From Siphonodentalium dalli (Eukaryota; Mollusca; Scaphopoda; Gadilida; Siphonodentaliidae): DNA of 64,000 nucleotides. The stretch covers positions 205,207,934-205,271,933 of the forward strand of contig CP136063.1 in the NCBI GenBank assembly GCA_032622095.1. The letters run 5' to 3'. Positions 19,594 to 55,036 of this stretch are shown piece after piece. The notes under the pieces are model-generated. The model made no database searches. It was not told the DNA's origin and saw only the letters and a program-made list of their open reading frames with translations. Position numbers and translations under genes: made by a program. Each line of letters starts with the position of its first letter. The stretch's first letter is position 1.

Positions 19594-20403
19594 ATGCTAG
19601 GCATCAAGAAAATACAGAACTATACCATTGCCATGTGCTCCGATGTATCACGATTCCAGAAAGAGGAAATGGATTACACGAATGCGACATGCGGCCACGT
19701 TAACATTGTCAAGATCGCGGTAATCGGCACAAATGGCGTCGGAAAAACGAGTTTCTTAAATCGTCTGTTAGACCACCCTCACTCGAGAGAAGTCAATTCG
19801 ACGACGATAATGGCGTCGTTGGAGATGAGAGAAATGGAGATAAGGAACAAGATAGCTGAAGATGTCCTCATCGAATTTTACGAGGTACCCGCTGTGCGAC
19901 AGTTTCAACATTTCAAAAGTTATCTTCAACGAACGTGCGACGCCTTCATTTTTCTCTATTCGCAAACTCAACCCGATTCTTTTCAAAATGTCTTCAAGGC
20001 CATAACTGAAATCCACCGAATGAGACCTAGAGAATGTGTGCCAATGGCTGTTTTATCGAACAAAGCAGATTTGCTTGAAGATTTGGACCCACATATTGGC
20101 TCTAAAGGTCTAGAACTATTGGTGGATCAGGAGATATTTTATTCTTCGTCAAAGGGAGCTTTCAAAGGTTTCGATGTGCTCAAAATGCTTCTTGGGCAAC
20201 TCGGAATGGCGTGTGATGACATAACTACTGACGAAAAGCCCGAAAGGACTTCGGTGAAGTCGATTGTTGCCGCGATGAGGCGTAGACTGACACTAGAGAG
20301 AAAACCGTCGCGAAGTTGGTCGCTAAGTTTTCCATCAAGCTTGTTATGTTCCTCGGGCGTCAAACGTCGCTTCCGAAGGGGCAGGCCGCACTGTTCTCTC
20401 TGA
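19594..20403 (+). CDS. Atypical Ras-superfamily GTPase, copy A (long tail)
   Basis: A predicted small GTPase of 269 residues in one uninterrupted exon. Motifs seen, numbered from the Met at 19,594: P-loop GTNGVGKT at 45-52 (phosphate binding), NKAD at 156-159 (guanine specificity), and SSSKG from 184 (G5-like). The switch II DxxG is replaced by FYEVPA at 95-100, so GTP hydrolysis may be lost or unusual. The tail after about 230 is basic (RRRLTLERKPSRSW and KRRFRRGRP) and ends PHCSL, not a CaaX box. It could bind membrane or partners by charge; this is inference. Divergent members such as kappaB-Ras (NKIRAS) or RGK proteins are the nearest comparisons I can suggest. Relative to the other copies, 9 bp containing a stop are missing just upstream, so the frame is open back to 19,525. 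An alternative Met lies at 19,555. Confidence 0.75.
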   Translation: MLGIKKIQNYTIAMCSDVSRFQKEEMDYTNATCGHVNIVKIAVIGTNGVGKTSFLNRLLDHPHSREVNSTTIMASLEMREMEIRNKIAEDVLIEFYEVPAVRQFQHFKSYLQRTCDAFIFLYSQTQPDSFQNVFKAITEIHRMRPRECVPMAVLSNKADLLEDLDPHIGSKGLELLVDQEIFYSSSKGAFKGFDVLKMLLGQLGMACDDITTDEKPERTSVKSIVAAMRRRLTLERKPSRSWSLSFPSSLLCSSGVKRRFRRGRPHCSL

Positions 20404-21242
20404 TTTGTAAATTGTAAATCGATTTCTGAAATGGCGATTCACGTAATATGATTATGTATATATAGCACCGCTTTCTGTGACTAAGATGCATCTTGATCGA
20501 ACATTTAACATCCAAATTTGGTGATATTCACAGTAATTATAATTTTTGAATCCTTAAAATTTATTGAAATAATGTGGTTCACATTTTAAAGATGAATTTA
20601 GTGCTGAAAACCTATTTGTATGCAGCCTATTTTATTTCTCACATTTTCTAGATGATAAAATAGCACGTTTGGACAAGTGGCACATTATATGGACCCAAGA
20701 CACGCTGTAGGTAAATATAAGTCTGTAAACACATCACAACTACAAAAAGAACATGGAGAAATAGATACACTGTGTTCTTATATTCGCTATTGATAGTTCT
20801 GCAATAACGAAATTTCGTGTGTTGAAATAATTGTTATGTAAACGAAACTGACAATGATTTGTCAACAACGATCGATAACCGTGCAGTAAGTTACAATACA
20901 TGTATAATAATTTATATTACTCTGAATTTTGAGAATAAATTTAAATTCTTTGACCCTTCCAATGTTTACTGTCAACATTGGTATCTTATTGGATTAATTG
21001 GACTTTTATCGGTAATTCCACCGTGATAGTAATGTTAAACGTGATGTTTATATAACAATGATTTTGAGAAGCGAAATCTCATTATTGGAGTGATATTTAG
21101 AATGGGAATGAGAATGAAATCGAGCCATTTGTGTATGTATACTTGTCTTGTTTATTATTGTTATTTTACAGACTTTTACACACAAAAATGTTATTTCGCA
21201 CGAACCCACTTGGAAGACATTGGGTCCCTTTAAAGACGCCGT
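20404..21242 (+). other. 3' flank of GTPase copy A
   Basis: Non-coding, AT-rich, and conserved in all five units, but with more differences here than between B and E. AATAAA at about 20,934 is a possible polyadenylation signal; B to E read AATCAA at that place. No other gene is seen. Confidence 0.4.
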
Positions 21243-21690
21243 CTTAAAGGCACTCAATCCGATATAAGAACCCCTAATTTACTATTTCTTTGGTTTCGGG
21301 GGTAAAAAATATTTGATTCGAGTCGAGGAAACCCACCCATCAATGCTCAGATTGATCAGATATCGATTTTTGAAATTTGTCAATTTTTGGAGATGTGGGC
21401 CAGAACCTCGTGCTCAAACAGACAAATTGCGGGTGTAAGATGGATAATCAAGTGGTTATTATTGTTAATAGTAACCACTTGATTTTCGAGTTATCCATCT
21501 TACCACCGCAATTTGTCTTGAGCTCGAGGTTCTGGCTTACATCTCCAAAAATTAACGAACTTCAAAAATTGATATCTGATCACTCTGAGCTTTGATCGAT
21601 GGGTTCCTCGACTCGAATCAAATATTGTTTACCCCCGAAGCCAAAGAAATAGTAATTTAGGGGTACTTAATCGGATTGAGTACCTTTAAT
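21243..21690. repeat. Large inverted repeat IR1, unit A
   Basis: The arms are about 200 bp. The left arm starts TTAAAGGCACTCAATCCG and the right arm ends CGGATTGAGTACCTTTAA. The inner stem AAGTGGTTA/TAACCACTT surrounds a loop of about 12 bp. The whole would fold into one long hairpin or cruciform. It resembles a foldback or palindromic MITE, with no coding capacity. Confidence 0.8.
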
Positions 21691-22143
21691 TGACCTTGAA
21701 TTTTCTGTACGTTCACTTCCTTAATTTCAATATACAATTTAAAAATAGAATAAATACTACAATACTTGTTTAGTTCTATAACGAAATTAAATCAACAACT
21801 ATATATGTATCGATTAAATGTCACATTACATGCATGTTTCAGCGGAATGTGCATATTAAATTATATTTTCTGATTTATAACTCGAGGTCTTTGTTCTCTT
21901 TAAAATGTTCATTAATGTATTTGCATATATGTATATACGTGCAATAATGTTGTCTATTCGTGTGCCGCATTACCGTGTATTTGTTTATTGGAATAAAATT
22001 ATAAAATTTCAAATTTCTTGGGTTTCGATATGTACATTAGTTATTATACCAGGGGATTGTCCGTCAAAATGATGGTTGTTTCAGAATTGTGCACGTGATT
22101 TCATCAAATACGTTGGCGCAATAGGCCTTCTCACTGAGTCGCG

Positions 22144-22322
22144 ACCATATTGGATCGATCCAGCCCGTTCCGTTTTTAGCGCTACATGTCAAAGTTCTGG
22201 TGTAGTATTCCATATATGGAGCTTTTGAATATTCATGAATTTCATAAATAGAATTCTACTCCAGAACTTTCACCTGTAGCAATAAAAAATACGGAACGGG
22301 GCTGGATGGATCCAAAATGACC
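22144..22322. repeat. Inverted repeat IR2 (MITE-like), unit A
   Basis: Terminal inverted arms of about 70 bp: ATATTGGATCGATCCAGCCC at the left and GGGGCTGGATGGATCCA at the right, with an AT-rich centre around CATATATGGAGC. It is shared by all five units at the same relative place, so it was present before amplification. Confidence 0.75.
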
Positions 22323-22544
22323 GCCCTCAGTGTCAAGGCGTATTGAAAGCTTCAATTAAAATTAACTTTTTAGGATTTGCTCTACCCGTCGCCCCATTCC
22401 AATGCATTATTGTATACTAATACCGATAGGGATGTTACTGTGATCTGAAACCTGAAAAAACTTCGACGAAAGTCCCAGCCGGAGTGTGGTTTTGTGGTTG
22501 TATAGTGTTCTCAGAGGTACGCGGGCCTAGCGACCGTACTTGAA

Positions 22545-22643
22545 ATGGGTGTCAGTGGCACTGTAGTTCAACTTGGAAATGGAATGATGCCATACATTGC
22601 AGTCAATGGAGCGATATGGAATGAGGAAAGCTTAACTGTTTAA
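22545..22643 (+). CDS. Small ORF, 32 codons, shared by units A, D and E
   Basis: ATG to TAA, reading MGVSGTVVQL at the start and MMPYIAVNGAIWNEESL near the end. The same frame is open in D (49,547) and E (57,154). Differences between A and D include both silent and replacement changes, so constraint is not shown. It may be a fragment of a longer protein, because the frame is open a short way upstream. Function unknown; a chance ORF is quite possible. Confidence 0.2.
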   Translation: MGVSGTVVQLGNGMMPYIAVNGAIWNEESLTV

Positions 22644-23068
22644 CCCTTTCAGTGCCAGGGGCCGATCTCATCGGCCCTAATTTACGGTCTGTAAAATCGG
22701 CTCTAAAATTTTTTTTTATTTTTTTTTTTAAAGATTTTTTGGGGTTGAATTTTGTTTGGGTTTGCTTAAGCATGCTATAGCGAATTTAAAAACAAACTGG
22801 ATAAAACCTTAGGGGCATGTTATAACTCAAAACTATCACCAAGTATTCATAGTAATACTGTTGATGCCCATGAAAAACGTAAGATTTCCTGACAAAATAC
22901 TGAAAGAGTTAAAGAATATAAGGAAAAATATTAAAATTGTAAAAATTAATAACAAATGATGAAAAATTGTTAGGCCAATGCATTCTCTTATATATGCGAG
23001 GCGACCTATGGTCGACTCGCATATATAAGAGAATGCATTGGCACAGGGTATATGGGTTGATACAAAAA
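22644..23068. other. Insertion in unit A relative to D and E
   Basis: Units D and E continue directly from the sORF into a 92-codon ORF region, whereas A carries this extra block. It starts with a perfect 8-bp-arm hairpin, GGGCCGATCTCATCGGCCC (22,658-22,676). A T-rich run follows, and it contains the perfect palindrome at 22,974-23,042. Confidence 0.6.
22974..23042. repeat. Perfect 27-bp-arm palindrome
   Basis: Left arm 22,974-23,000 (GCCAATGCATTCTC then TTATATATGCGAG), right arm 23,016-23,042 its exact reverse complement. The 15-bp centre is itself nearly palindromic (CGACC-TAT-GGTCG). A diverged relative lies at 18,390-18,462, so this is a small hairpin repeat family. Confidence 0.85.
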
Positions 23069-23930
23069 GTCCACTCGCTACGCGATGTCTGAACGCTGCC
23101 GGCACGTGTTTTTTCTTAATTAAATCTAAACAAATTTAGTGAAGTGTTTTGCCAGTTTCAATTCATTCTGGTTTGATCTAGACTATTTTCAAATGAATAA
23201 GGACGGTTCAATTTCTCAGAATAATGCAGAATGAATTGTAACCTACAAACATCTCAAATAAATAAATCCGACATTTCTTCATATTACGTGTATAGGTGCG
23301 GGCAGCGGTAGGGCCTGCGTATGGGACTTAAACCTGTCTGGAGCTTGCAAATATACAAGTGAAACACCAAGAGTACTATACGCCCCCGACCCTCAGTTTA
23401 GAGAGTGGGCAATACTAAATATTTGTATGAATGTTAATTTCTAAATTTTTAAAATGGGCTATAAATACACCAAAACACAACCAAATACGATGATCCATGC
23501 CAAAGTTACAATTACCAAGTCAAACACGGGCTGTGACTGGTAAAAATGAATGGACGAAACCCGTGTTATGTGTGGGTATAATTTACTCCATGCTGGGCTA
23601 TCACCATACCAAAGCACAGCCGTAGTTGATTACCCATGCCCGAATTACAAGCTTAAATGTCCGTACAGAGACACAATTAACATATTTGCAAGTCAAACAA
23701 GGGCCGTAACTCTGGCAAATTGAATGGACGAAATATGTAAGTCGGTATCATTTCCCCGAGCTGAGTGTTATCACCATGCAAAGGCACAACTGAATCAGAA
23801 TATCCTTTCCCAAATTAGAAACTGAACTGTTCTTTCGGACATAACATTCACAAAGTCAAACAAGGGCCGTAACTTTGGTAAAAAATGAAGACGAAACCTG
23901 TAGAATTGGATATCCTTTCACCAACATCTA
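23069..23930 (+). repeat. Tail of unit A with tandem repeats of about 130-165 bp
   Basis: From about 23,470 units recur with CAAGTCAAACA-GGGC-GTGACT, a GAATGGACGAAA block, ATCACCATGC-AAAGCACA, CCATGCCCGAATTACAAGCT and so on. The same array is longer in D (50,225-50,960) and E (57,840-58,570). The repeats are non-coding. Confidence 0.65.
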
Positions 23931-24540: not shown

Positions 24541-24561
24541 CTCATATATATTTTGAAGACC

Positions 24562-24603
<42 letters not shown>

Positions 24604-33020: not shown

Positions 33021-33029
33021 ACTTCGCGG

Positions 33030-35110: not shown

Positions 35111-35562
35111 CATCAGATTTCAGATCCGAGATCAACTTTTCACGTGCCGAGGTCAAATCTGTTTTTACGCCGTTTTGCGCTAATATATTTCAGCTCGGTG
35201 CTCACAAATCGATTCGATATAGCGCGAATAATAAATTGCCAGTCATATAATTTGGATGGTTAGAATATGTGGCGCTTCCTCTTTCCAACGATATATCACA
35301 CGCCTGTGTCCGTTTAAAGTTTCTACCTTAATTGTCGGGAAGAACGCAGGACCATGCTTCGGTCATCGAAAAACATTCCGTGAATCTATTACGCCGTCAA
35401 GAGATCGTGACGTGATCGCGTTTAACTCTTAACCGGCCGATGTCGCGTTAACTCATCATGGGCCGAGGTATCCGCAAATCAGAACAGATATCGGAAACGG
35501 GTGGAGCTATCGACTTGAAATTTGCTATGTGAATGTATCTTGCCCCGGATACGAATTTTATA
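35111..35562. other. Spacer with a final satellite fragment
   Basis: No gene is seen. The last 80 bp (35,480-35,562) are a partial 122-bp satellite unit that runs directly into GTPase unit B at GAATTTTATA. Confidence 0.5.
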
Positions 35563-35618
35563 CTGGAAAATTATTGACTTTGACATAATTTTGATCGGAT
35601 GAGCATTTAAGAAAAAAA

Positions 35619-35624
35619 TATAAA
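35619..35624 (+). promoter_or_regulatory. TATA-box candidate, GTPase copy B
   Basis: TATAAA lies 250 bp upstream of the proposed start in a conserved leader, followed by an (AAC)n tract of about 20 bp. The same box occurs in C (40,980), D (46,355) and E (53,977) but not in A. This is sequence resemblance only. Confidence 0.3.
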
Positions 35625-35868
35625 TTGGGTGGAAACTAAAGATGAGAATACAGAATATGTCTATATAGAGGAAACAAAAACAACAACAACAACAACAACA
35701 ATAAACAAATGTGAACTTCACCTTCACCATCCTGACAACGCTAAACGGAAAAAACACATTATATATAGTGAAAGGAACGGCGGCGTGGTGTGTTTCTTAG
35801 TCCTTATATGTGCTAATTGCGTCGGATATCTAATCCGCGAATGACGTTTGCATGCCGTATATAATGAT

Positions 35869-37651: not shown

Positions 37652-38096
37652 TTGACCTTGAATTTTCTGTACGTTCACTTCACTTAATTTCAATATACAA
37701 TTTAAAAATAGAATAAATACTACAATACTAATCTTGTTTGGTTCTATAACGAAATTAAATCATCAACTATATATGTATCCATGAAATGTCACATTACATG
37801 CATGTTTCAGCGGAATGTGCATATTAAATTATATTTTCTGATTTATAACTCGAGGTCTTTGTTCTCTTTAAAATGTTCATTAATGTATTTGCATATATGT
37901 ATATACGTGCAATAATGTTGTCTATTCGTGTGCCGCATTACCGTGTATTTGGTGATTGGAATAAAATTATAAAATTTCAAATTGACATTAGTACATTAGT
38001 TATTATATACCAGGAGATTGTCCGTCAAAATGATGGTCGTTTCAGAATTGTGCACGTGATTTCATCAAATACGTTAGCGCAATAGGCCATGTCGCG

Positions 38097-38268
38097 GTCA
38101 TATTGGATCCATCCAGCCCCGTTCCGTTTTAGCGCTACATGTCAAAGTTCTGCAGTAGCATTCCATATATGGAGCTTTTGAATATTCATGAATTTCATAA
38201 ATAGAATGCTACCCCAGAACTTTCACCTGTAGCAATAAAAAAACGGGGCTGGATGGATCCAATATGAC
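38097..38268. repeat. Inverted repeat IR2 (MITE-like), unit B
   Basis: GTCATATTGGATCCATCCAG and CTGGATGGATCCAATATGAC are the perfect outer 20 bp of the two arms. The inner arms continue imperfectly for about 50 bp. Confidence 0.8.
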
Positions 38269-38439
38269 AGCCCTCAGTGGCAAGGCGTATTGAAAGCATC
38301 AATTAAAATTAACTTTTTAGGATTTCCTCTACCCATCGCCCCATTCCAATGCATTATTGTATATTACTACCGATAGGGGTGTTACTGTGTTCTGAAACCT
38401 GAAAAAACTTCGACGAAAGTCCCAGCCGGAGTGTGGTAT

Positions 38440-40028
38440 TCTTGCGGAAATTATCAAAATTTGATAAATTTTATTTCTAAATTATTACTTACAACGAAGA
38501 CCGCATGCCCCTTTAAGTGCGAACTGTCTCCAATAAGATGCAATATACGGTCAGATACACACTATTTAATTCATTAAACGTTAGTTCATTCAATTTCTCT
38601 TTCACATTGTTTAATAGCAACCTTCCTCAAAATGTGGTCTGTATCGAGGACAGTCTGTCGTGGAGCCAGGGAATGTATTAAGGTAGCGATTCAATTCTCA
38701 AGCGACTCAATTCTTTATTATCACAACCCACAATGAAACATGTATACGGGTGCATTCACTAGTAACGCTGTTACTGCCTCACAGTTATTTCAACCCCCGT
38801 GTACGTGGTATCGCAAAACTGGACTGACCATTGCATATTTCCTCGACGGTGGGGGTGGGGGGGGGGGGGGTTGCAGCACCATGAGTCCTGCAACCACTCC
38901 TGATTTATAACTTGATATTTTAGTTGACAGTCATGTCTGACGTGTCTGTATGCTACGAGTGATTAATCTAATATGCAATATGCAGCAATTTATTTATATA
39001 ATTATGAACATATTATTACAGCTTTAAATTTGAAGGTATATACAGAAGGTGGTGTTGCTGTGTCTTCGTTTGGGAAAAGGGTTGTTTAGCTACGAGTTCC
39101 CAACAGCGTCACCTTTCCTCTCTTGTGTTATACATGACAATTTATTGTATACGCACAATTTGCAACTGGAATATTTAAGTAAAACATTATATTGTGAATT
39201 CTTTCCCAGATAATCCCGGTTGATGTATAATATTCAACTCAAACCCTTAGTTATTCGAAGATTTCGAGAACCAGCCCCCCCCCCCCCCAATCATGGATTA
39301 TGGTCGAAAATGTTATAATTCAAGCCTGTACAGGCTAAAATTGTGACAGTTAGAAACTTGTTCAACCTTTGGCGTGAGAAACATATACTCTTCTATAAAT
39401 TCTGGGTGAAAATGGGGGGAGGGGGTGTGGCTCTTTTTAATTTCAGCACTGTACGCGCATTAATTTTTTGGCGCTGTTATGGGTATTTGCATGTAAATTC
39501 CAATTGAAAATAATCACATGAGCTCGCTCTCAAATTATTCGAGCAATCTCAACAAGCCTGAATTGTCCTAAAAGAGCTTCACATTCTGCCATATTTTATT
39601 TTTGTTTTGGATGACCCTGTTTCCAAGAAATGACGAGAAACAAATCAAGTATAAAATCGACGGACTCAAACCACTTTTCGAAATGAATTAAAACCGTGAA
39701 ACACAGCAACAGATATAAGACAGGATTTATTCATTTCGGCATTGATGAAAGAAGACATGTTTATCACTGGCCTGAAATGTCTTGATAACAATTAGTTTGA
39801 TAATGGCTTATAACTACTCACTGGTCTCGCCTGTTGAAATTGACCGATCGCGCGCAGGCGATTAATACTATCACTGATTGGTGTGACCATGTAAAATACA
39901 TCGAATACATGGATTTCACATACATAAATTACATATAAGTGTGTATCCACCCTTAAGGGTCGCTGAGTGGTCGGTCATTCTTGTCGGTTTTGTCGTCATG
40001 GGCACGAATCCTCTTCTGAATACATTGT
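38440..40028 (+). other. Right half of unit B, non-coding
   Basis: Shared only with unit C. It includes the dispersed repeat 38,670-38,825 (inverted copy at 28,310-28,470), a G-run at 38,848-38,870 that could form a G-quadruplex, and a C-run at 39,275-39,288. No gene is seen. Confidence 0.5.
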
Positions 40029-40744
40029 TCAAAAAGTCGTTTTTGTTTGTTGTGCGCATCGAAATTTTGTAGATCGAGGTCTATAAATACATCCTATGAT
40101 ATATATTTCATGTTTTCCGAATTCAAGCTCAATGAACACAGTTTCGATAACATGTGGGATAAATATTGATAGATCGGGCCTGTTTCTATGCGTGACAGTG
40201 TCCATTATGTAAATACTAACACCGCCCCTACCATCATCGTGATCATGCCTTGATTTAAATTCCATGGAGTGATGACCGGACCGGAGAGTTTAAAGTCCAA
40301 TGCTTGGTGTATTTTAAATGTTTCGATTAGCGATATTATATCAAGATTGTTGTCATTGGTTTTCATGTCACATAAAAGATTTTGTAAGTTTTGAAAATTT
40401 GTGTTGATGCTTCTGCAGTAAAGACCAAACATTGACAGTTTAGTCTTCTTGTTGAAAATATCTTTCGCTTGTAGAGTTGAGAAGTAACGGCAATTGTTTT
40501 GATCAAAAACAGACAGAGTTGGTTCTTCATCTTCCTCTAGACTAGCGCATTTGGCTGCAAGATCAAAATTATGCGCTTCCCTAACCTCACTCAGTGTTAC
40601 GTTATTTGTGGCCATAAGGTGATTTGTTGATATTTTTATAACATATGTGCCCTTGTTCAGATCAGTCAGCATATACCCGTGATTTAAGTACGGTCTGCAC
40701 ACGACGTTGCACCTGTAAATAATATTAGACATTGTAAGATGCAT
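40029..40744 (-). pseudogene. LINE 5' fragment with endonuclease, unit B (frameshifted)
   Basis: Minus-strand remnant reading LSMFGLYCRSINTNFQNLQN, LDIISLIETFK, GRGGVSIYI and IIGCIYRPRST. This is the start of an L2/Daphne-type endonuclease preceded by about 115 residues of ORF2 leader. An extra CCGGA at 40,281-40,285, absent in copy C, shifts the frame, and Ile replaces Thr just before the catalytic Glu region. Nothing after the YRP block is readable. Confidence 0.75.
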
Positions 40745-40979
40745 TTGTTTTCATAGAAACAATTTTCTTTAGTGGGTATATTAATTTTAATAGTTTCACA
40801 CCATGAACTCAGGAAATTGATAGCAGTATTTTAAGTTGTTTAAGGGAAAGAGCTTTCGAAATTGAATTTTAAGCCAAAAATAACTTTTATTTCTGGTAGT
40901 GACCATGGATTTTCCCAAGTTCACGGGAAAATTATTGACTTTGACATAGTTTTGATCGGATGAGCATTTAAGAAAAAAA

Positions 40980-40985
40980 TATAAA
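40980..40985 (+). promoter_or_regulatory. TATA-box candidate, GTPase copy C
   Basis: TATAAA, 250 bp upstream of the proposed ATG, in the conserved leader. Resemblance only. Confidence 0.3.
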
Positions 40986-41229
40986 TTGGGTGGAAACTAA
41001 AGATGAGAATACAGAATATGTCTATATAGAGGAAACCAAAGCAACAACAACAACAACAACAATAAACAAATGTGAACTTCACCTTCACCTTCCTGACAAC
41101 GCTAAACGGAAAAAACACAATATATATAGTGAAAGGAACGGCGGCGTGGTGTGTTTCTAAGTCCTTATATGTGCTAATTGCGTGGGATATCTAATCCGCG
41201 AATGACGTTTGCATGCCGTATATAATGAT

Positions 41230-41937
41230 ATGCTAGGCATCAAGAAAATATGTAACTATACCATTGCCATGTGCTCCGATGTATCACGATTCCAGAAAGA
41301 GGAAATGGATTACACAAATGCGACATGCGGCCACGTTAACATTGTCAAAATCGCGGTAATCGGCACAAATGGCGTCGGAAAAACGAGTTTCTTAAATCGT
41401 CTGTTAGACCACCCTCACTCGAGAGAAGTCAATTCGACGACGATAATGGCGTCGTTGGAGATGAGAGAAATGGAGATAAGGAACAAGATAGCTGAAGATG
41501 TCCTCATCGAATTTTACGAGGTACCCGCTGTGCGACAGTTTCAACATTTCAAATATTATCTTCAACGAACGTGCGACGCCTTCATTTTTCTATATTCGCA
41601 AACTCAACCCGATTCTTTTCAAAATGTCTTCAGGGCCATAACTGAAATCCAGCGAATGAGACCTAGAGAATGTGTGCCAATGGCTGTTTTATCGAACAAA
41701 GCAGATTTGCTTGAAGATTTGGACCCACATATTGGCTCTAAAGGTCTAGAACTATTGGTGGATCAGGAGATATTTTATTCTTCGTCAAAGGGAGCTTTCA
41801 AAGGTTTCGATGTGCTCAAAATGCTTCTTGGGCAACTCGGAATGGCGTGTGATGACATAACTACTGACGAAAAGCCCGAAAAGAATTCGGTGAAGTCGAT
41901 TGTTGCCGCGATGAGGCGCAGACTGTTAACATTTTAA
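41230..41937 (+). CDS. Atypical Ras-superfamily GTPase, copy C (short tail)
   Basis: 235 residues, the same motif positions as copy B and the same C-terminal deletion ending RRRLLTF. Copy-specific replacements are FKYYLQ (Tyr for Ser) after switch II and EKNS (Lys for Arg) near the end. The P-loop, NKAD and SSSKG are unchanged. B and C share both the deletion and the right half of the unit, so they are sister copies. Confidence 0.7.
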   Translation: MLGIKKICNYTIAMCSDVSRFQKEEMDYTNATCGHVNIVKIAVIGTNGVGKTSFLNRLLDHPHSREVNSTTIMASLEMREMEIRNKIAEDVLIEFYEVPAVRQFQHFKYYLQRTCDAFIFLYSQTQPDSFQNVFRAITEIQRMRPRECVPMAVLSNKADLLEDLDPHIGSKGLELLVDQEIFYSSSKGAFKGFDVLKMLLGQLGMACDDITTDEKPEKNSVKSIVAAMRRRLLTF

Positions 41938-42595
41938 AGATGAATTTAGTGCTGAAAAACCAATTTGTATGCAGCCTATTTTATTTCTTTCGTTTTCTAG
42001 ATTATAAAATAGAACGTTTGGACAAAAAGTGGCACATTATATGGACCCAAGGCACGCTGTAGGTAAATATAAGTCTGTAAACACATCACAACTATAAAAA
42101 GAACATGGAGAAATAGATACACTGTGTTCTTATATTCGCTATTGATACTTCTGCAATAACGAAATTTCGTGTATTGAAATAATTGTTATGTAAACGAAAC
42201 TGTTACAGTGATTTTTCAACAACGACCGATAACCGTGCAGTAAGTTAGAATACATGTATAATAATTGTATTTTACTCTGAATTTTGAGAATCAATTTTCA
42301 ATGATTTCACCCTTCCAATGTTTACTGTCAACTTTGGTATCTTATGGGATTAATTGGACTTTTATCGGTAATTCCACCTGACAGTAATGTTAAACGTGAT
42401 GTTTATATAACAATGGTTTTGAGAAGCGAAATCTCATTATTGGAGAGATATTAAGAATGGGAATAAGAACGAAATCGAGCCATTTGTGTATGTATTTATC
42501 TTGTTTATTATTGTTATTTTACAGACTTTTACAAATAAAATGTTATTTCGCATGAACCCACTTGGAAGACATTGGATGCCTTTAAAGACGCTATC

Positions 42596-43048
42596 TTAAG
42601 GGTACTCAATCCAATTAAGGACCCCTCAATTACTATGTCTTTTGATTCGGGTAAAAAAATATTTGATTCGAGTCGAGGAACCCACCCATCAAAGCTCAGA
42701 GTGATCAGATATAGATTTTTGAAGTTTGTCAATTTTTGGAGATGTGGGCCAGTACCTCGTGATCAAACAGACAAATTGCGGGTGTAAGATGGATAACTCT
42801 AAAATCAAGTGGTTATTATTGTCAATAGTAACCACTTGATTTTCGAGTTATCCGTCTCACACCGCAATTTGTCTGTTTGAGCACGAGGTTCTGGCCCACA
42901 TCTCCAAAAATCAACAAACTTTAAAAATCGATATCTGATCACTCTGAGCTTTGATGGGTGAGTTCCTCGACTCGAATCAAATATTTGTTACCCCCGAAGC
43001 CAAAGAAATAGTAATTTAGGGGTGCTTAATCGGATTGAGTACCTTTAA
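42596..43048. repeat. Large inverted repeat IR1, unit C
   Basis: Full-length form of about 453 bp with the apex AAGTGGTTA-TTATTGTCAATAG-TAACCACTT intact. Confidence 0.8.
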
Positions 43049-43491
43049 TTCACCTTGAATTTTCTGTACGTTCACTTCACTTAATTTCAATATACAATTT
43101 AAAAATAGAATAAATACTACAATACTAATCTTGTTTGGTTCTATAACGAAATTAAATCATCAACTATATATGTATCCATGAAATGTCACATTACATGCAT
43201 GTTTCAGCGGAATGTGCATATTAAATTATATTTTCTGATTTATAACTCGAGGTCTTTGTTCTCTTTAAAATGTTCATTAATGTATTTGCATATATGTATA
43301 CGTGCAATAATGTTGTCTATTCGTGTGCCGCATTACCGTGTATTTGGTGATTGGAATAAAATTATAAAATTTCAAATTGACATTAGTACATTAGTTATTA
43401 TATACCAGGAGATTGTCCGTCAAAATGATGGTCGTTTCAGAATTGTGCACGTGATTTCATCAAATACGTTAGCGCAATAGGCCATGTCGCG

Positions 43492-43663
43492 GTCATATTG
43501 GATCCATCCAGCCCCGTTCCGTTTTAGCGCTACATGTCAAAGTTCTGCAGTAGCATTCCATATATGGAGCTTTTGAATATTCATGAATTTCATAAATAGA
43601 ATGCTACCCCAGAACTTTCACCTGTAGCAATAAAAAAACGGGGCTGGATGGATCCAATATGAC
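43492..43663. repeat. Inverted repeat IR2, unit C
   Basis: Same 172-bp element as in unit B, with perfect outer arms of 20 bp. Confidence 0.8.
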
Positions 43664-43834
43664 AGCCCTCAGTGGCAAGGCGTATTGAAAGCATCAATTA
43701 AAATTAACTTTTTAGGATTTCCTCTACCCATCGCCCCATTCCAATGCATTATTGTATATTACTACCGATAGGGGTGTTACTGTGTTCTGAAACCTGAAAA
43801 AACTTCAACGAAAGTCCCAGCCGGAGTGTGGTAT

Positions 43835-45408
43835 TCTTGCGGAAATTATCAAAATTTTATTTCTAAATTATTACTTACAACGAAGACCGCATGCCCCTTT
43901 AAGTGCGAACTGTCTCCAATAAGATGCAATATACGGTCAGATACACACTATTTAATTCATTAAACGTTAGTTCATTCAATTTCTCTTTCACATTGTTTAA
44001 TAGCAACCTTCCTCAAAATGTGGTCTGTATCGAGGACAGTCTGTCGTGGAGCCAGGGAATGTATTAAGGTAGCGATTCGATTCTCAAGCGACTCAATTCT
44101 TTATTATCACAACCCACAATGAAACATGTATACGGGTGCATTCACTAGTAACGCTGTTACTGCCTCACAGTTATTTCAACCCCGTGTACGTGGTATCGCA
44201 AAACTGGACTGACCATTGCATATTTCCTCGACGGTGGGGGTGGGGGGGGGGGGGGTGCAGCACCATGAGTCCTGCAACCACTCCTGATTTATAACTTGAT
44301 ATTTTAGTTGACAGTCATGTCTGACGTGTCTGTATGCTACGAGTGATTAATCTAATATGCAATATGCAGCAATTTATTTATATAATTATGAACATATTAT
44401 TACAGCTTTAAATTTGAAGGTATATACAGAAGGTGGTGTTGCTGTGTCTTCGTTTGGGAAAAGGGTTGTTTAGCTACGAGTTCCCAACAGCGTCACCTTT
44501 CCTCTCTTGTGTTATACATGACAATTTATTGTATACGCACAATTTGCAACTGGAATATTTAAGTAAAACATTATATTGTGAATTCTTTCCCAGATAATCC
44601 CGGTTGATGTATAATATTCAACTCAAACCCTTAGTTATTCGAAGATTTCGAGAACCAGCCCCCCCCCAATCATGGATTATGGTCGAAAATGTTGTAATTC
44701 AAGCCTGTACAGGCTAAAATTGTGACAGTTAGAAACTTGTTCAATCTTTGGCGTGAGAAACATATACTCTTCTATAAATTCTGGGTGAAAATGGGGGGAG
44801 GGGGTGTGGCTCTTTTTAATTTCAGCACTGTACGCGCATTAATTTTTTGGCGCTGTTATGGGTATTTGCATGTAAATTCCAATTGAAAATAATCACATGA
44901 GCTCGCTCTCAAATTATTCGAGCAATCTCAACAAGCCTGAATTGTCCTAAAAGCGCTTCACATTCTGCCATATTTTATTTTTGTTTTGGATGACCCTGTT
45001 TCCAAGAAATGACGAGAAACAAATCAAGTATAAAATCGACGGACTCAAACCACTTTTCGAAATGAATTAAAACCGTGAAACACAGCAACAGATATAAGAC
45101 AGGATTTATTCATTTCGGCATTGATGAAAGAAGACATGTTTATCACTGGCCTGAAATGTCTTGATAACAATTAGTTTGATAATGGCTTATAACTACTCAC
45201 TGGTCTCGCCTGTTGAAATTGACCGATCGCGCACAGGCGATTAATACTATCACTGATTGGTGTGACCATGTAAAATACATCGAATACATGGATTTCACAT
45301 ACATAAATTACATATAAGTGTGTATCCACCCTTAAGGGTCGCTGAGTGGTCGGTCATTCTTGTCGGTTTTGTCGTCATAGGCACGAATCCTCTTCTGAAT
45401 ACATTTGT
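43835..45408 (+). other. Right half of unit C, non-coding
   Basis: Matches 38,440-40,028. The G-run (44,235-44,255) and C-run (44,656-44,667) differ in length from unit B, as expected for slippage. No gene is seen. Confidence 0.5.
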
Positions 45409-46119
45409 TCAAAAAGTCGTTTTTGTTTGTTGTGCGCATCGAAATTTTGTAGATCGAGGTCTATAAATACATCCTATGATATATATTTCATGTTTTCTGA
45501 ATTCAAGCTCAATGAACACAGTTTCGATAACATGTGGGATAAATATTGATAGATCGGGCCTGTTTCTATGCGTGACAGTGTCCATTATGTAAATACTAAC
45601 ACCGCCCCTACCATCATCGTGATCATGCCTTGATTTAAATTCCATGGAGTGATGACCGGAGAGTTTAAAGTCCAATGCTTGGTGTATTTTAAATGTTTCG
45701 GTTAGCGATATTATATCAAGATTGTTGTCATTGGTTTTCATGTCACATAAAAGATTTTGTAAGTTTTGAAAATTTGTGTTGATGCTTCTGCAGTAAAGAC
45801 CAAACATTGACAGTTTAGTCTTCTTGTAGAAAATATCTTTCGCTTGTAGATTTGAGAAGTAACGGCAATTGTTTTGATCAAAAACAGACAGAGTTGGTTC
45901 TTCATCTTCCTCTAGACTAGCGCATTTGGCTGCAAGATCAAAATTATGCGCTTCCTTAACCTCACTCAGTGTTACGTTATTTGTGGCCATAAGGTGATTT
46001 GTTGATATTTTTATAACATATGTGCCCTTGTTCAGATCAGTCAGCATATACCCGTGATTTAAGTACGGTCTGCACACGACGTCGCACCTGTAAATAATAT
46101 TAGACATTGTAAGATGCAT
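45409..46119 (-). pseudogene. LINE 5' fragment with endonuclease, unit C (open over 236 codons)
   Basis: The minus-strand frame is open from an ATG at 46,119 to a stop at 45,409. It has an ORF2 leader, then LSMFGLYCRSINTNFQNLQN, LDIISLTETFK (catalytic Glu), GRGGVSIYI and IIGCIYRPRST. The rest of the endonuclease and the whole RT are absent, so it cannot act in retrotransposition. It lacks the 5-bp insertion of unit B. Confidence 0.75.
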
Positions 46120-46354
46120 TTGTTTTCATAGAAACAATTTTCTTTAGTGGGTATATTAATTTTAATAGTTTCACACCATGAACTCAGGCAATTGATAGCA
46201 GTATTTTAAGTTGTTTAAGGGAAAGAGCTTTCGAAATTGAATTTTAAGCCAAAAATAACTTTTATTTCTGGTAGTGACCATGGATTTTCCCAAGTTCACG
46301 GGAAAATTATTGACTTTGACATAATTTTGATCGGATGAGCATTTAAGAAAAAAA

Positions 46355-46360
46355 TATAAA
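46355..46360 (+). promoter_or_regulatory. TATA-box candidate, GTPase copy D
   Basis: TATAAA in the conserved leader, with a shorter (AAC)n tract than the other copies. Resemblance only. Confidence 0.3.
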
Positions 46361-46598
46361 TTGGGTGGAAACTAAAGATGAGAATACAGAATATGTCTAT
46401 ATAGAGGAAACCAAAGCAACAACAACAACAATAAACAAATGTGAACTTCACCTTCACCATCCTGACAACGCTAAACGGAAAAAACACATTATATATAGTG
46501 AAAGGAACGGCGGCGTGGTGTGTTTCTAAGTCCTTATATGTGCTAATTGCGTGGGATATCTAATCCGCGAATGACGTTTGCATGCCGTATATAATGAT

Positions 46599-47303
46599 AT
46601 GCTAGGCATCAAGAAAATATGTAACTATACCATTGCCATGTGCTCCGATGTATCACGATTCCAGAAAGAGGAAATGGATTACACAAATGCGACATGCGGC
46701 CACATTAACATTGTCAAAATCGCGGTAATCGGCACAAATGGCGTCGGAAAAACGAGTTTCTTAAATCGTCTGTTAGACCACCCTCATTCGAGAGAAGTCA
46801 ATTCGACGACGATAATGGCGTCGTTGGAGATGAGAGAAATGGAGATAAGGAACAAGATAGCTGAAGATGTCCTCATCGAATTTTACGAGGTACCCGCTGT
46901 GCGACAGTTTCAACATTTCAAAAGTTATCTTCAACGAACGTGCGACGCCTTCATTTTTCTCTATTCGCAAACTCAACCCGATTCTTTTCAAAATGTCTTC
47001 AGGGCCATAACTGAAATCCAGCGAATGAGACCTAGAGAATGTGTGCCAATGGCTGTTTTATCGAACAAAGCAGATTTGCTTGAAGATTTGGACGCACATA
47101 TTGGCTCTAAAGGTCTAGAACTATTGGTGGATCAGGAGATATTTTATTCTTCGTCAAAGGGAGCTTTCAAAGGTTTCGATGTGCTCAAAATGCTTCTTGG
47201 GCAACTCGGAATGGCGTGTGATGACATAACTACTGACGAAAAGCCCGAAAGGAATTCGGTGAAGTCGATTGTTGCCGCGATGAGGCGCAGACTGACACTA
47301 TAG
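46599..47303 (+). CDS. Atypical Ras-superfamily GTPase, copy D (tail lost by 2-bp insertion)
   Basis: 234 residues. The motifs are as in the other copies; it differs by Ile for Val in GHINIV before the P-loop and Ala for Pro in LDAHIG, the latter shared with E. The sequence encoding the basic tail is still present downstream. However, a TA insertion (CACTATAGAG instead of CACTAGAG) creates an immediate stop after RRRLTL. The truncation is therefore recent and independent of the deletion in B and C. Confidence 0.7.
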   Translation: MLGIKKICNYTIAMCSDVSRFQKEEMDYTNATCGHINIVKIAVIGTNGVGKTSFLNRLLDHPHSREVNSTTIMASLEMREMEIRNKIAEDVLIEFYEVPAVRQFQHFKSYLQRTCDAFIFLYSQTQPDSFQNVFRAITEIQRMRPRECVPMAVLSNKADLLEDLDAHIGSKGLELLVDQEIFYSSSKGAFKGFDVLKMLLGQLGMACDDITTDEKPERNSVKSIVAAMRRRLTL

Positions 47304-48253
47304 AGAGAAAACCGTCGCGGAGTTGGTCGCTAAGTTTTCCATCAAGCTTGTTATGTTCCTCGGGAGTCAAACGTCGCTCCCGAAGGGGCAGGCCGCACTG
47401 TTCTCTCTGATTTGTAAATTGTAAATTGATTTCTGAAATGGCGATTCACGTAATATGATTATGTATATATAGCACCGCTTTCTGTGACTAAGATGCATCT
47501 TGATCGAACATTTAACATCTGAATTTGGTGATATTCACAGTAATTATTATTTTTGAATCCTTAAAATTGATTAAAATAATGTGGTTCACATTTTAAAGAT
47601 GAATTTAGTGCTGAAAACCAATTTGTATGCAGCCTATTTTATTTCTTACGTTTTCTAGATTATAAAATAGAACGTTTGGACAAAAAGTGGCACATTATAT
47701 GGACACAAGGCACGCTGTAGGTAAATATAAGTCTGTAAACACATCACAACTATAAAAAGAACATGGAGAAATAGATACACTGTGTTCTTATATTCGCTAT
47801 TGATACTTCTGCAATAACGAAATTTCGTGTGTTGAAATAATTGTTATGTAAACGAAACTGTTACAGTGATTTTTCAACAACGACCGATAACCGTGCAGTA
47901 TGTTACAATACATGTATAATAATTGTATTTTACTCTGAATTTTGAGAATCAATTTTCAATGATTTCACCCTTCCAATGTTTACTGTCAACTTTGGTATCT
48001 TATGGGATTAATTGGACTTTTATCGGTAATTCCACCTGACAGTAATGTTAAACGTGATGTTTATATAACAATGGTTTTGAGAAGCGAAATCTCATTATTG
48101 GAGAGATATTAAGAATGGGAATAAGAACGAAATCGAGCCATTTGTGTATGTATTTATCTTGTTTATTATTGTTATTTTACAGACTTTTACAAATAAAATG
48201 TTATTTCGCATGAACCCACTTGGAAGACATTGGATGCCTTTAAAGACGCTATC

Positions 48254-48706
48254 TTAAGGGTACTCAATCCGATTAAGCACCCCTCAATTACTATGTCTTT
48301 TGCTTCGGGGTAAAAAATATTTGATTCGAGTCGAGGAACCCACCCATCAAAGCTCAGAGTGATCAGATATCGATTTTTGAAGTTTGTCAATTTTTGGAGA
48401 TGTGGGCCAGTACCTCGTGATCAAACAGACAAATTGCGGGTGTAAGATGGATAACTCTAAAATCAAGTGGCTATTATTGTCAATAGTAACCACTTGATTT
48501 TCGAGTTATACATCTCACACCGCAATTTGTCTGTTTGAGCACGAGGTTCTGGCCCACATCTCCAAAAATCAACAAACTTTAAAAATCGATATCTGATCAC
48601 TCTGAGGTTTGATGGGTGAGTTCCTCGACTCGAATCAAATATTTGTTACCCCCGAAGCCAAAGAAATAGTAATTTAGGGGTGCATAATCGGATTGAGTAC
48701 CTTTAA
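48254..48706. repeat. Large inverted repeat IR1, unit D
   Basis: About 453 bp, with the apex intact except for one change in the left inner stem (AAGTGGCTA). Confidence 0.8.
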
Positions 48707-49151
48707 TTGACCTTGAATTTTCTGTACGTTCACTTCACTTAATTTCAATATACAATTTAAAAATAGAATAAATACTACAATACTAATCTTGTTTGGTTCT
48801 ATAACGAAATTAAATCATCAACTATATATGTATCCATGAAATGTCACATTACATGCATGTTTCAGCGGAATGTGCATATTAAATTATATTTTCTGATGTA
48901 TAACTCGAGGTCTTTGTTCTCTTTAAAATGTTCATTAATGTATTTGCATATATGTATATACGTGCAATAATGTTGTCTATTCGTGTGCCGCATTACCGTG
49001 TATTTGGTGATTGGAATAAAATTATAAAATTTCAAATTGACATTAGTACATTAGTTATTATATACCAGGAGATTGTCCGTCAAAATGATGGTCGTTTCAG
49101 AATTGTGCACGTGATTTCATCAAATACGTTAGCGCAATAGGCCATGTCGCG

Positions 49152-49323
49152 GTCATATTGGATCCATCCAGCCCCGTTCCGTTTTAGCGCTACATGTCAA
49201 AGTTCTGCAGTAGCATTCCATATATGGAGCTTTTGAATATTCATGAATTTCATAAATAGAATGCTACCCCAGAACTTCCACCTGTAGCAATAAAAAAACG
49301 GGGCTGGATGGATCCAATATGAC
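49152..49323. repeat. Inverted repeat IR2, unit D
   Basis: 172-bp MITE-like element with perfect outer arms. Confidence 0.8.
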
Positions 49324-49546
49324 AGCCCTCAGTGGCAAGGCGTATTGAAAGCATCAATTAAAATTAACTTTTTAGGATTTCCTCTACCCATCGCCCCATT
49401 CCAATGCATTATTGTATATTACTACCGATAGGGGTGTTACTGTGTTCTGAAACCTGAAAAAACTTCGACGAAAGTCCCAGCCGGAGTGTGGTTTTGTGGT
49501 TGTATAGTGTTCTCAGAAGTACGCGGGCCTAGCGATCGTACTTGAA

Positions 49547-49645
49547 ATGGGTGTCAGTGGCACTGTAGTTCAACTTGGAGATGTGATGATGCCATACATT
49601 GCCGTCAATGGTGCGATATGGAATGAGGACAGTTTAAATGTTTAA
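49547..49645 (+). CDS. Small ORF, 32 codons, unit D
   Basis: Counterpart of 22,545-22,643; reads MGVSGTVVQLGDVMMPYIAV at the start. Not recognised. Confidence 0.2.
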   Translation: MGVSGTVVQLGDVMMPYIAVNGAIWNEDSLNV

Positions 49646-49916
49646 GCAACACCATGCAGAGGTCAGCCAGCATAGCCATTTTAAAAGTTTGGGATCAATT
49701 GGACGAAAACGGTTGGCCGTAGGGCGTGCTGAAGTATTTAGTCATCAAAGCAAGAGTGTTCGCTTATTTTATTGTCGGGTGGTGTTAACCATGCTAACAC
49801 AATTCGGCATCAAATATACCAAGCAGCAAAACAGAGAGTTCAGTCCCCACGCTACGCGATGTCTGAACGCTGCCTGCACGTGTATGTTCTTAATTCAATC
49901 TAAACAAAATTATTGA
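49638..49916 (+). CDS. Hypothetical 92-residue ORF, unit D
   Basis: ATG to stop, starting MFKQHHAEVSQHSHFKSLGS. It overlaps the small upstream ORF by 8 bp. The copy in unit E (57,245) is identical in protein sequence, but the surrounding DNA is equally conserved, so this is no proof of selection. The later part includes CTACGCGATGTCTGAAC, also present in unit A without the ORF start. Function unknown; possibly not a gene. Confidence 0.25.
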   Translation: MFKQHHAEVSQHSHFKSLGSIGRKRLAVGRAEVFSHQSKSVRLFYCRVVLTMLTQFGIKYTKQQNREFSPHATRCLNAACTCMFLIQSKQNY

Positions 49917-50224
49917 AGTTTTGCCAGTTTCAATTCAATCTGGCTTGATCTAGACCATTATCAAATGAATATGGACGGTTCAGTTTCTCAGAATAATGCA
50001 GAATGAATTGTAACCTACCAAATTCTCAAATAAATAAATGCGACATTTCTTCACATTACTTTTATGTATATACGTGCAGCGGTAGGTCCTGCGTAGGGGA
50101 CTGAACTCTGCCTGTAGCTTGCAAATATACAAGTGAAACACTAAGCGTGCTATTCGCCCCGCTCCTCAGTTTAGAGAGTGGGCAATACTAAATATTTGTA
50201 TGGATGTTATTTTCTAAATTTTTA

Positions 50225-50960
50225 AAACGGGCTATAAATACACCAAATACGATGATCCATGCCCAAGTTACAAGCTGAAATTTTCATACGGATACAAAAT
50301 TCAGAAATTACCAAGTCAAACACGGGCTGTGACTGTTAGAAATGAATGAACGAAACCCGTATTATATGTGGGTATAATTTACCGCATGCTGAGCTATCGC
50401 CATACCAAAGCACAGCCGTAGCTGATTATCCATGCCCGAATTTCAAGCTGAAATGTCGGTACAGAGACAAAATTAACACATTTGCATGCGAGTCGAACAA
50501 GGGCCGTAACTCTGGAAAAATGAATGGACGAAATATGTAGTAAGTCGGTATCATTATATAGAGCTGAGTGTGTTATCGCCATGCAAAAGCACAACTGAAT
50601 CAGATTATCCTTGCCCAAATTACAAACTGAACTGTTCTTTCGGACATAAAATTCACAACGTCAAACAAGGGCCGTAACTTTGGTAAACAATGCAGGAAGA
50701 AACCTGTAGTATGTGGATATCCTTTCCCCAAACATGTGCTATCACCATGTCCAAGAACAACGAAATCCAACAATTAACACCCGAGTTACAAGCTGAAATG
50801 TTCGTACGGAAATAAATTTCCTAGTCAAGCAAGGACGATAACTCTGGTAAAAAATAATGCACGAAACCCGTAGTATCTGGATATCCTTTTCCCCAACATG
50901 TGCTATTACCATGCGCTAAAGGACAACAGCAGAATCCGGTAATTAACACCCGAGTCACAA
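50225..50960 (+). repeat. Tandem repeat array of about 130-170 bp, unit D
   Basis: About five diverged units with GTCAAACA-GGGC-GTAACT-TGG, GACGAAACCCGTAGTAT-TG, CATGTGCTATCACCATG and CCGAGTTACAAGCTGAAATG blocks. Also in E (57,840-58,570) and partly in A. Confidence 0.75.
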
Positions 50961-51329
50961 GGTGACATGGTCGGGTTGAGACGTCCCGACGTATACGTAC
51001 TGACGGACGGACGGCTATATATGCCTAGAACATCCTATTCGTGGCATGATAAACGTAGAATTGAACATTTATTTGCCCCTCGACATCACTACCGCGTTGT
51101 GAATATTCATTACCCGTAGTTTGACTGAAATAAATGCCCAATTCGTGTTGGGCGTTGGATCGATTGGGCATGACCAACGCCATGCATGCAACAATGCAAA
51201 AAAGCGAAACCTCTTGCAGTGATGCCGATAAAAATAATTGTGACACTTTTTCCAGGGTTGTAATAGAAATTTCGTAGAGGTGTACTTTCCTGCGACACTT
51301 TTCTCATAACAACACGGCATCTACAGAAA

Positions 51330-51530
51330 TGCCCTAAATAATCGATTCCTTAACCACAGCAGAATTATTGGTAATTTTTCAGGATTTAGTCGGAAATATG
51401 GCTTGTTGCCATTCATCGGAAAGCTCTCAGTGAGAACTTTCCGATGAATGGCAACAAGCCATATTTCCGTTTAAATCCTGAAAAATTACCCATAATTCTG
51501 TTGTGGTTAAGGAGTCGATTATTTAGGGCA
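51330..51530. repeat. Palindrome IR3, unit D (about 201 bp)
   Basis: The arms start TGCCCTAAATAATCGA and end TCGATTATTTAGGGCA. The inner stem is GGCTTGTTGCCATTCATCGG/CCGATGAATGGCAACAAGCC, and the centre is AAGCTCTCAGTGAGAACTT. Only a few mismatches occur over about 95-bp arms. Confidence 0.85.
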
Positions 51531-51807
51531 TTACTGTACATGTATAGACGCTCCATTTCTATCGATATTACTATGAATATCTGGTCTGCTTGATAACGTG
51601 GAGAAATAAATACATGTAATAGAATTACTTTGAAATAAGCTCCTATCTGTGTTCACAGTCGGCAGCGTTGGAAAAATGCACACCGAAAACGGAACGTGTA
51701 ACTACCGAGTACCGAGAACGTGATGCGACATCGAACCATGCCCATTCAAGTGATTACAGCATGTGGTGTAGCGGATATCGGGCATGTCCTTCATGTAAGA
51801 ACACACC

Positions 51808-53879: not shown

Positions 53880-53976
53880 ACTTTTATTTCTGGTAGTGAC
53901 CATGGATTTTCCCAAGTTCACGGGAAAATTATTGACTTTGACATAATTTTGATCGGATGAGCATTTAAGAAAAAAA

Positions 53977-53982
53977 TATAAA
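53977..53982 (+). promoter_or_regulatory. TATA-box candidate, GTPase copy E
   Basis: TATAAA in the conserved leader, followed by the longest (AAC)n tract of the family. Resemblance only. Confidence 0.3.
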
Positions 53983-54229
53983 TTGGGTGGAAACTAAAGA
54001 TGAGAATACAGAATATGTCTATATAGAGGAAACAAAAACAACAACAACAACAACAACAACAATAAACAAATGTGAACTTCACCTTCACCATCCTGACAAC
54101 GCTAAACGGAAAAAACACATTATATATAGTGAAAGGAACGGCGGCGTGGTGTGTTTCTAAATCCTTATATGTGCTAATTGCGTCGGATATCTAATCCGCG
54201 AATGACGTTTGCATGCCGTATATAATGAT

Positions 54230-55036
54230 ATGCTAGGCATCAAGAAAATATGTAACTATACCATTGCCATGTGCTCCGATGTATCACGATTCCTAAAAGA
54301 GGAAATGGATTACACAAATGCGACATGCGGCCACGTTAACATTGTCAAAATCGCGGTAATCGGCACAAATGGCGTCGGAAAAACGAGTTTCTTAAATCGT
54401 CTGTTAGACCACCCTCACTCGAGAGAAGTCAATTCGACGACGATAATGGCGTCGTTGGAGATGAGAGAAATGGAGATAAGGAACAAGATAGCTGAAGATG
54501 TCCTCATCGAATTTTACGAGGTACCCGCTGTGCGACAGTTTCAACATTTCAAAAATTATCTTCAACGAACGTGCGACGCCTTCATTTTTCTCTATTCGCA
54601 AACTCAACCCGATTCTTTTCAAAATGTCTTCAGGGCCATAACTGAAATCCAGCGAATGAGACCTAGAGAATGTGTGCCAATGGCTGTTTTATCGAACAAA
54701 GCAGATTTGCTTGAAGATTTGGACGCACATATTGGCTCTAAAGGTCTAGAACTATTGGTGGATCAGGAGATATTTTATTCTTCGCCAAAGGGAGCTTTCA
54801 AAGGTTTCGATGTGCTCAAAATGCTTCTTGGGCAACTCGGAATGGCGTGTGATGACATAACTACTGACGAAAAGCCCGAAAGGAATTCGGTGAAGTCGAT
54901 TGTTGCCGCGATGAGGCGCAGACTGACACTAGAGAGAAAACCGTCGCGGAGTTGGTCGCTAAGTTTTCCATCAAGCTTGTTATGTTCCTCGGGAGTCAAA
55001 CGCTCCCGAATGGGCAGGCCGCACTGTTCTCTCTGA
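54230..55036 (+). CDS. Atypical Ras-superfamily GTPase, copy E (long tail)
   Basis: 268 residues in one exon, the only copy besides A with the full basic C-terminal tail (RRRLTLERKPSRSW, then GVKRSRMGRPHCSL). P-loop at 45-52, FYEVPA at 95-100 and NKAD at 156-159. The G5-like loop reads SSPKG instead of SSSKG, which could weaken base contact. Other replacements are Leu for Gln in SRFLKEE and Asn for Ser in FKNYLQ. A 3-bp deletion and a substitution alter the KRRFRRG of copy A to KRSRMG. Start choice as for the other copies. With its TATA-containing leader and intact tail it is the best candidate for a complete gene in B to E. Confidence 0.75.
   Translation: MLGIKKICNYTIAMCSDVSRFLKEEMDYTNATCGHVNIVKIAVIGTNGVGKTSFLNRLLDHPHSREVNSTTIMASLEMREMEIRNKIAEDVLIEFYEVPAVRQFQHFKNYLQRTCDAFIFLYSQTQPDSFQNVFRAITEIQRMRPRECVPMAVLSNKADLLEDLDAHIGSKGLELLVDQEIFYSSPKGAFKGFDVLKMLLGQLGMACDDITTDEKPERNSVKSIVAAMRRRLTLERKPSRSWSLSFPSSLLCSSGVKRSRMGRPHCSL

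Follow-up and report, generated by a model that had tools for sequence, protein, structure and literature searches.

Can a Ras-like gene whose G3 motif has been replaced in every one of five tandem copies still encode a working protein, and if so, of what kind? The question is raised by a stretch of 64,000 nucleotides from the scaphopod mollusc Siphonodentalium dalli (assembly GCA_032622095.1, contig CP136063.1, here also C3, positions 205,207,934 to 205,271,933), hereafter called the window, in whose own numbering coordinates are given unless another contig is named. Five Ras-like open reading frames (ORFs), all on the plus strand, lie within 19594-55036 of this 64-kb window. On balance we favour a reading in which the array is a lineage-specific Ras-family gene, recently amplified in tandem, whose product is predicted from its motifs to be a class ii pseudoGTPase, able to bind nucleotide but deficient in hydrolysis, soluble and locked with GTP. 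In PMC5593906, class ii pseudoGTPases are those that bind nucleotide without catalysis, and the Rnd proteins are described as having decayed near switch II and as carrying GTP permanently.

Five copies of a Ras-like frame without DxxG

Copy A (19594..20403, plus strand) is an intact Ras-like ORF with a long C-terminal tail, and copy E (54230..55036, plus strand) also carries a long tail, with a 3-bp in-frame difference from copy A. The tail has been removed from copies B (35869..36576, plus strand) and C (41230..41937, plus strand) by a deletion of ~287 bp common to both, leaving the C-terminus RRRLLTF, and from copy D (46599..47303, plus strand) by a 2-bp (TA) insertion, leaving RRRLTL. Copies B-E share 96-97% protein identity with copy A. 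Over 231 codons the array frame contains no stop in any of the five copies, while each of the five alternative frames has 7-15, so that the open frame is not a matter of chance. In every copy a TATATAA sequence, putatively a promoter element, precedes the MLGIKK ATG by the same 11 bp (19583..19589, plus strand, for copy A, with equivalents at 35858, 41219, 46588 and 54219). Given how close it stands to that ATG, the next one (MCSDVS..., position 19633 in copy A) is the more likely start of translation.

Every copy scores above the cut-off of the Pfam Ras profile (PF00071; 50.5-53.7 bits against 21.6, E 2.3e-14 to 2.3e-13), which was the profile check called for by the earlier, sequence-only reading of this DNA. 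The NCBIfam small_GTP model fell slightly short of its cut-off in the two copies searched with it (41.6 and 39.0 bits against 42.5). A PDB sequence search with copy B returned M-Ras as the best match (2.4e-10) and GEM at 1.4e-7, and a profile made from two array copies and seven other genomic Ras-like ORFs brought Rap, DiRas and Ras chains to the top (Rap2A 3.6e-42). With five intact ORFs, five Pfam matches and these PDB relatives, the tandem Ras-like array that had been read from the letters holds up.

G1, the P-loop, is GTNGVGKTS and G4 is NKAD in every copy, while G5 is SSSK in four of them and SSPK in copy E. At the G3 position each copy reads IEFYEVPA, with EVPA replacing DxxG. Aligned with HRAS DTAGQ, the array's EVPAV exchanges Asp-57 for Glu, Ala-59 for Pro, Gly-60 for Ala and Gln-61 for Val (Ras numbering); Gly-12 has become Asn, and the Thr-35 column holds Thr. 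No CaaX box is present at the C-terminus of any of the five copies, and copies A and E end in ...GRPHCSL, with Cys at -3. The combination claimed from the letters (P-loop and NKAD retained, DxxG replaced, no prenylation box) is therefore true of the whole array, which has the Ras-family profile score, G1 and G4 and departs from the family at G3 in all five copies.

A predicted GTP-bound product

In Ras, G1, G4 and G5 are the motifs that hold the nucleotide, and changes at residues 12, 60 and 61 abolish hydrolysis and the action of GTPase-activating proteins (GAPs) and hamper the switch. As the array keeps the P-loop, Thr-35, NKxD and the S-x-K of G5, its product should bind GTP and Mg2+. The residues at Ras positions 57 (Glu), 60 (Ala), 61 (Val) and 12 (Asn) would probably do away with hydrolysis and blunt the conformational switch between GDP and GTP forms. 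Without a CaaX box the protein would presumably be soluble, and might bind a Ras-family partner, or act as its decoy, in a constitutively 'on' or otherwise fixed conformation. Provided that the copies are expressed, as we infer, activity would then depend on gene dosage and partner binding and not on cycling between guanine nucleotide exchange factors and GAPs.

Origin of the array

Self-comparison of the window places the copies in duplicated DNA blocks, all in plus orientation, of which block A is the divergent one. In its first 3.1 kb block A (19532..23927) shares ~93% identity with blocks D and E, and past a gap 86-90%. Blocks B (35562..40882) and C (40883..46257) differ at 27 of 4602 aligned bases outside the coding sequence (CDS), and block D (46258..51712) matches block E (53880..59319) at 96.6% over 5479 bp. 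The distal parts of B and C are alike and unlike those of D and E; in block B this part holds a minus-strand ORF that resembles a long interspersed nuclear element (LINE) by eye. Spacing from ATG to ATG is irregular (A-B 16.3 kb, B-C 5.36 kb, C-D 5.37 kb, D-E 7.63 kb), and unrelated repeats lie between A and B. The array is most likely a recent tandem segmental duplication of a one-exon coding frame.

A protein search of the 2.23-Gb genome (nine contigs) with the array as query, in which 35 candidates were scored, gave 11 matches at E <= 0.001, namely the five copies and six distant loci, the nearest at 31% identity. No further close copy was found among the 35 scored candidates. A mobile-element carrier was dropped as an explanation, since every close copy found belongs to this single array and the copies have their flanks in common.

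Other repeats were observed in and around the blocks. Satellite-like repeats, with a 122-bp period in part, occupy 24540-26394 and 33027-34958 and flank LINE-like ORFs between A and B. An interstitial array of telomere-type AACCCT/TTAGGG hexamers (28.5 copies, 77% match) lies at 51808-51980, and a 1.2-kb segment is common to the D-E gap (51705-52884) and the window end (62380-63577) at 91.7%. At 59432-61953 a 1.4-kb segment is repeated at an offset of ~1.09 kb with 98.3% identity, and a minisatellite-like array with self-matches ~38 bp apart is found at 7087-8344.

Constraint, decay and gene conversion

Copy A differs from copies B-E at 12-14 of 695-696 CDS bases and at 35-38 of 662 bases of the 3' flank (Fisher p 7.7e-5 to 1.2e-3). 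Indels point in the same direction: the 687 CDS bases of 19594-20280, a stretch that stops just short of the tail lesions in B, C and D, have none, whereas 19-25 were counted in 1.9-2.0 kb of flank (Poisson P(0) 1.5e-4 to 1.6e-3). Several results weigh against a functional gene under constraint, however. Nonsynonymous and synonymous changes among the five copies stand at 14:5 by hand count, a ratio that fits neutrality (binomial p 0.58); diversifying selection was sought with this ratio and with that among B-E (10:2, p 1.0) and was not found. The basic tail, kept in A and E, has been lost in three of the five copies. Synonymous divergence of copy A (2.2-2.8%) is likewise below that of the flanks, which means that gene conversion may account for much of the low CDS divergence. 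Copies D and E differ at 6 of 696 CDS bases and at 124 of 4680 elsewhere, rising distally, which has the look of local homogenisation, and between B and C (7 of 696 against the 27 of 4602 elsewhere, p 0.2) there is no CDS deficit at all. A structure predicted from the five copies gave no usable model (mean predicted local distance difference test score 39.6, predicted template modelling score 0.37), and the strand and helix order of this low-confidence model resembles the Ras fold only loosely. Gene conversion among the copies is likely. The evidence for selection is mixed, and we read the frame as kept, with the signal blurred by gene conversion and by the youth of the copies.

Much of this would also be expected if the array were evolutionary noise, that is, an already relaxed Ras-like gene, recently duplicated in tandem, homogenised by gene conversion and now decaying with no special role. 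The neutral ratio suits that explanation, as do the loss of the tail through different lesions in D and in B and C, the local homogenisation of D and E, the missing CDS deficit between B and C, and the low synonymous divergence. We nevertheless consider it unlikely, though it is the most serious of the rivals: five frames remain open over 231 codons, indels are absent from 687 CDS bases and plentiful in the flanks, G1 and G4 are invariant in all five copies, and the E-[VL]-P form of G3 recurs at two other open frames in the genome (see below). A more trivial explanation, in which one or two genes have been repeated by misassembly or by uncollapsed haplotypes, draws on the near identity of B and C, which differ at only 34 of 5298 aligned bases. 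This seems very improbable, as B, C, D and E each have coding changes of their own and none of the four matches A; in addition, A is 5-9% divergent in the 3' flanks, the distal parts of B and C differ from those of D and E, and the repeats between A and B are unrelated.

Placement among the Ras families

Trees were built from 25 or 26 rows, of which 11 were unverified reference sequences of known families, and included three of the five array copies (A, C and E). A RASD-like exon (L049) was left out of all trees, both L014 and L015 were kept, and only L024 represented the same-reading pair L023/L024. Branches are long throughout the trees of the array and its kin loci. In trees of both sizes the array falls on the side of DIRAS1, RASD1, NKIRAS and loci of its own genome. 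In the best 25-row trees it stands with the own-genome loci of the RASD/DiRas side (support 85/81 with the G3 columns and 83/61 without them, neither starred). This would group the array, with modest support, with eight further Ras-like loci, most of them one-exon, on the RASD/DiRas side. The remaining 25-row comparisons (approximately unbiased test p-values, p-AU) disfavour HRAS/RALA (0.034) and RERG/RASL12 (0.021) as sister groups; DIRAS1 as sole sister is borderline (0.050), and RASD1, the RASL10-like locus L016, L014/L015 or L027 in that position are not rejected (0.15-0.25).

The sequence-only reading had proposed a kappaB-Ras- or RGK-like ancestor. A derived, one-exon retrocopy of kappaB-Ras (NKIRAS), without a CaaX box and acting through NF-kB or RalGAP partners, has in its favour that reference human NKIRAS2 and NKIRAS1 score right after L014-L017 in comparison with the array (E ~1e-11), and that kappaB-Ras and the array share an FY[DE]xx[GA] switch-II context. 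Grouping the array with NKIRAS is not rejected either (p-AU 0.22 with and 0.34 without the G3 columns in 25 rows, 0.19 and 0.20 in 26 rows), and to this extent the kappaB-Ras suggestion survives. However, no best tree joins the two, the array scores higher against L014-L017 of its own genome, and a separate NKIRAS gene is present, so that the array is not the genome's NKIRAS orthologue. A search with the reference NKIRAS1 found that gene on contig C2 as two pieces with 59-60% identity, compared with 26-28% for the array; in all it comprises at least five pieces (C2:227.54-227.555 Mb) and groups with human NKIRAS at 100/100. We regard a retrocopy origin as improbable. A protein of RGK type (Rad/Gem/Rem) with calcium-channel beta subunits as its target is more improbable still, indeed the least credible of the alternatives, even though it would share the altered G3, the missing CaaX box and the basic tail of A and E, and GEM was matched both in the PDB (1.4e-7) and as a reference sequence (1.9e-11). 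For a clade of the array with GEM/RRAD, both among the unverified reference sequences, p-AU is 0.017 with the G3 columns and a borderline 0.051 without them in 25 rows, and 0.012 and 0.004, respectively, in 26 rows. When compared with the reference GEM/RRAD, the array ends (GRPHCSL, RRRLLTF and RRRLTL) do not show the conserved 11-residue C-terminal RGK signature described in PMC4081519, and the Arg and His contact residues given there were not seen, by eye, in an alignment with the reference GEM. The sequence-only reading, which had suggested that the array may be a lineage-specific regulator, is supported as regards the Ras profile and the restriction of close matches to the array among the 35 scored candidates; an RGK-like ancestor is disfavoured and a kappaB-Ras-like one unsupported.

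Within the NKIRAS gene itself (L071/L072, C2:227536700-227556400), the switch-II piece (VSLYKHYFTFPD) occurs twice together with a variant, and a piece of the QVDYHVASTWASREK type occurs three times. These near-duplicates are possibly duplicated, mutually exclusive exons.

Other Ras-like loci of this genome

Searches with L014, L028, L026 and L017 uncovered Ras-like loci with a whole or near-whole G domain in one frame, although L019 is not one-exon, its C-terminal match lying 3 kb away. Their G3 motifs vary: DTAG at L017 (C6), L019 (C1), L027 (C5) and L029 (C3), DCAG at L024 (C5), DTAA at the L014/L015 pair (C5), ELPG at L026 (C3:190.1 Mb) and EVPS at L028 (C8:116.5 Mb). In the 26-row alignment strict DxxG is absent from five of the 12 own-genome rows from outside the window (L014, L015, L026, L028 and L016, which reads DCPY).

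An ungapped I-E-x-x-E-[VL]-P is common to the array, L026 and L028, which makes a single origin attractive. The altered G3, with E-[VL]-P also at two dispersed loci, may characterise a subfamily instead of marking a single defective gene that was copied. This goes beyond the sequence-only reading, and suggests that a subfamily with a lost switch may exist. In its full form, which we put forward as tentative and rather unlikely, the array, L028 and L026 would be a distinct functioning Ras-like subfamily whose hydrolytic switch was lost once in a common ancestor and which signals through copy number and partner divergence, with the array as its youngest branch. With the G3 columns included, the best trees do join the array, L028 and L026 (89/95 in 25 rows, 75/83 in 26 rows).

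Other results tell against a shared origin or leave it undecided. With the G3 columns removed, L026 and L028 pair without the array (82/84 in 25 rows, 90/85 in 26 rows) and the grouping of all three is neither supported nor rejected (p-AU 0.46 in 25 rows, 0.38 in 26 rows); with L026 removed as well, L028 joins L014/L015 (89/95), and the array and L028 together have p-AU 0.22. Neither L028 nor L026 is among the 11 matches of the genome search with the array (35 candidates scored), nor is the array among the eight matches of the L028 query or the nine of the L026 query. In a direct comparison with the array, the reference NKIRAS, GEM and HRAS sequences outscore L028 (4.9e-10) and L026 (1e-8), and the best scores from outside the array are those of L014, L015, L016 and L017, followed by the reference NKIRAS2, NKIRAS1 and GEM.

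Two observations on other small GTPases of this genome may be added. Two near-identical Ras-like pairs lie on C5 at 69.5/95.2 Mb and 80.1/83.5 Mb, one of them in opposite orientation, and reflect either large chromosomal duplications or assembly duplication. A Rab-like open frame of 269 aa (L042, C9:7404300-7406000) reads NLSC, by eye, where its neighbour L040, ~40 kb away, has DTAG, and appears to be another G3-degenerate small GTPase copy.

Comparison with known systems

Rnd proteins belong to the Rho family and are prenylated, whereas the array belongs to the Ras family and has no CaaX box. The predicted logic is nevertheless the same as that set out for Rnd in PMC5593906, with GTP held, no hydrolysis and degradation near switch II. 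kappaB-Ras is, like the array, of the Ras family and without CaaX, and in PMC8526694 it is described as mainly GTP-bound, with switch changes thought to lock GTP. Unlike the array, NKIRAS keeps Asp-57 and Gly-60 (DTRG in the human proteins, DTGG in this genome) and is encoded here by a separate gene in several pieces. RGK proteins resemble the array in their non-canonical G3 (DXWE in vertebrates), absent CaaX and basic C-terminus, and according to PMC4081519 members without DxxG are still placed in the superfamily; they differ in having Asp (in GEM/RRAD) where the array has Glu and in their signature tail, which the array lacks, and a common clade is disfavoured. On the RASD (Dexras1/Rhes)/DiRas side, to which the array and its mostly one-exon kin are assigned in the best trees, the reference RASD1 and DIRAS1 sequences have an intact DxxG, unlike the array, whose position within that side is not firm. 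L028, L026 and L014/L015 are, like the array, open one-frame Ras-like proteins with altered G3 motifs (EVPS, ELPG and DTAA); their identity to copy A in the alignment is 25%, 23% and 22%, respectively (31% for L014 over the matched stretch), and L014/L015 differ from the array in keeping Asp-57. As the best reading of these likenesses, the array would resemble Rnd or kappaB-Ras in logic and be a member of neither.

The pseudoGTPases described so far are relatively few, according to PMC5593906, and in the part of the open-licence literature surveyed no pseudoGTPase Ras-like family with tandem duplication was described. The series DTAG, DCAG, DTAA, ELPG, EVPS and EVPA is a graded one, in possibly related Ras-like genes of one genome. 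If the genes are indeed related, it would show a GTPase in the course of losing its switch, and the nucleotide and partner binding of the dead forms could be compared.

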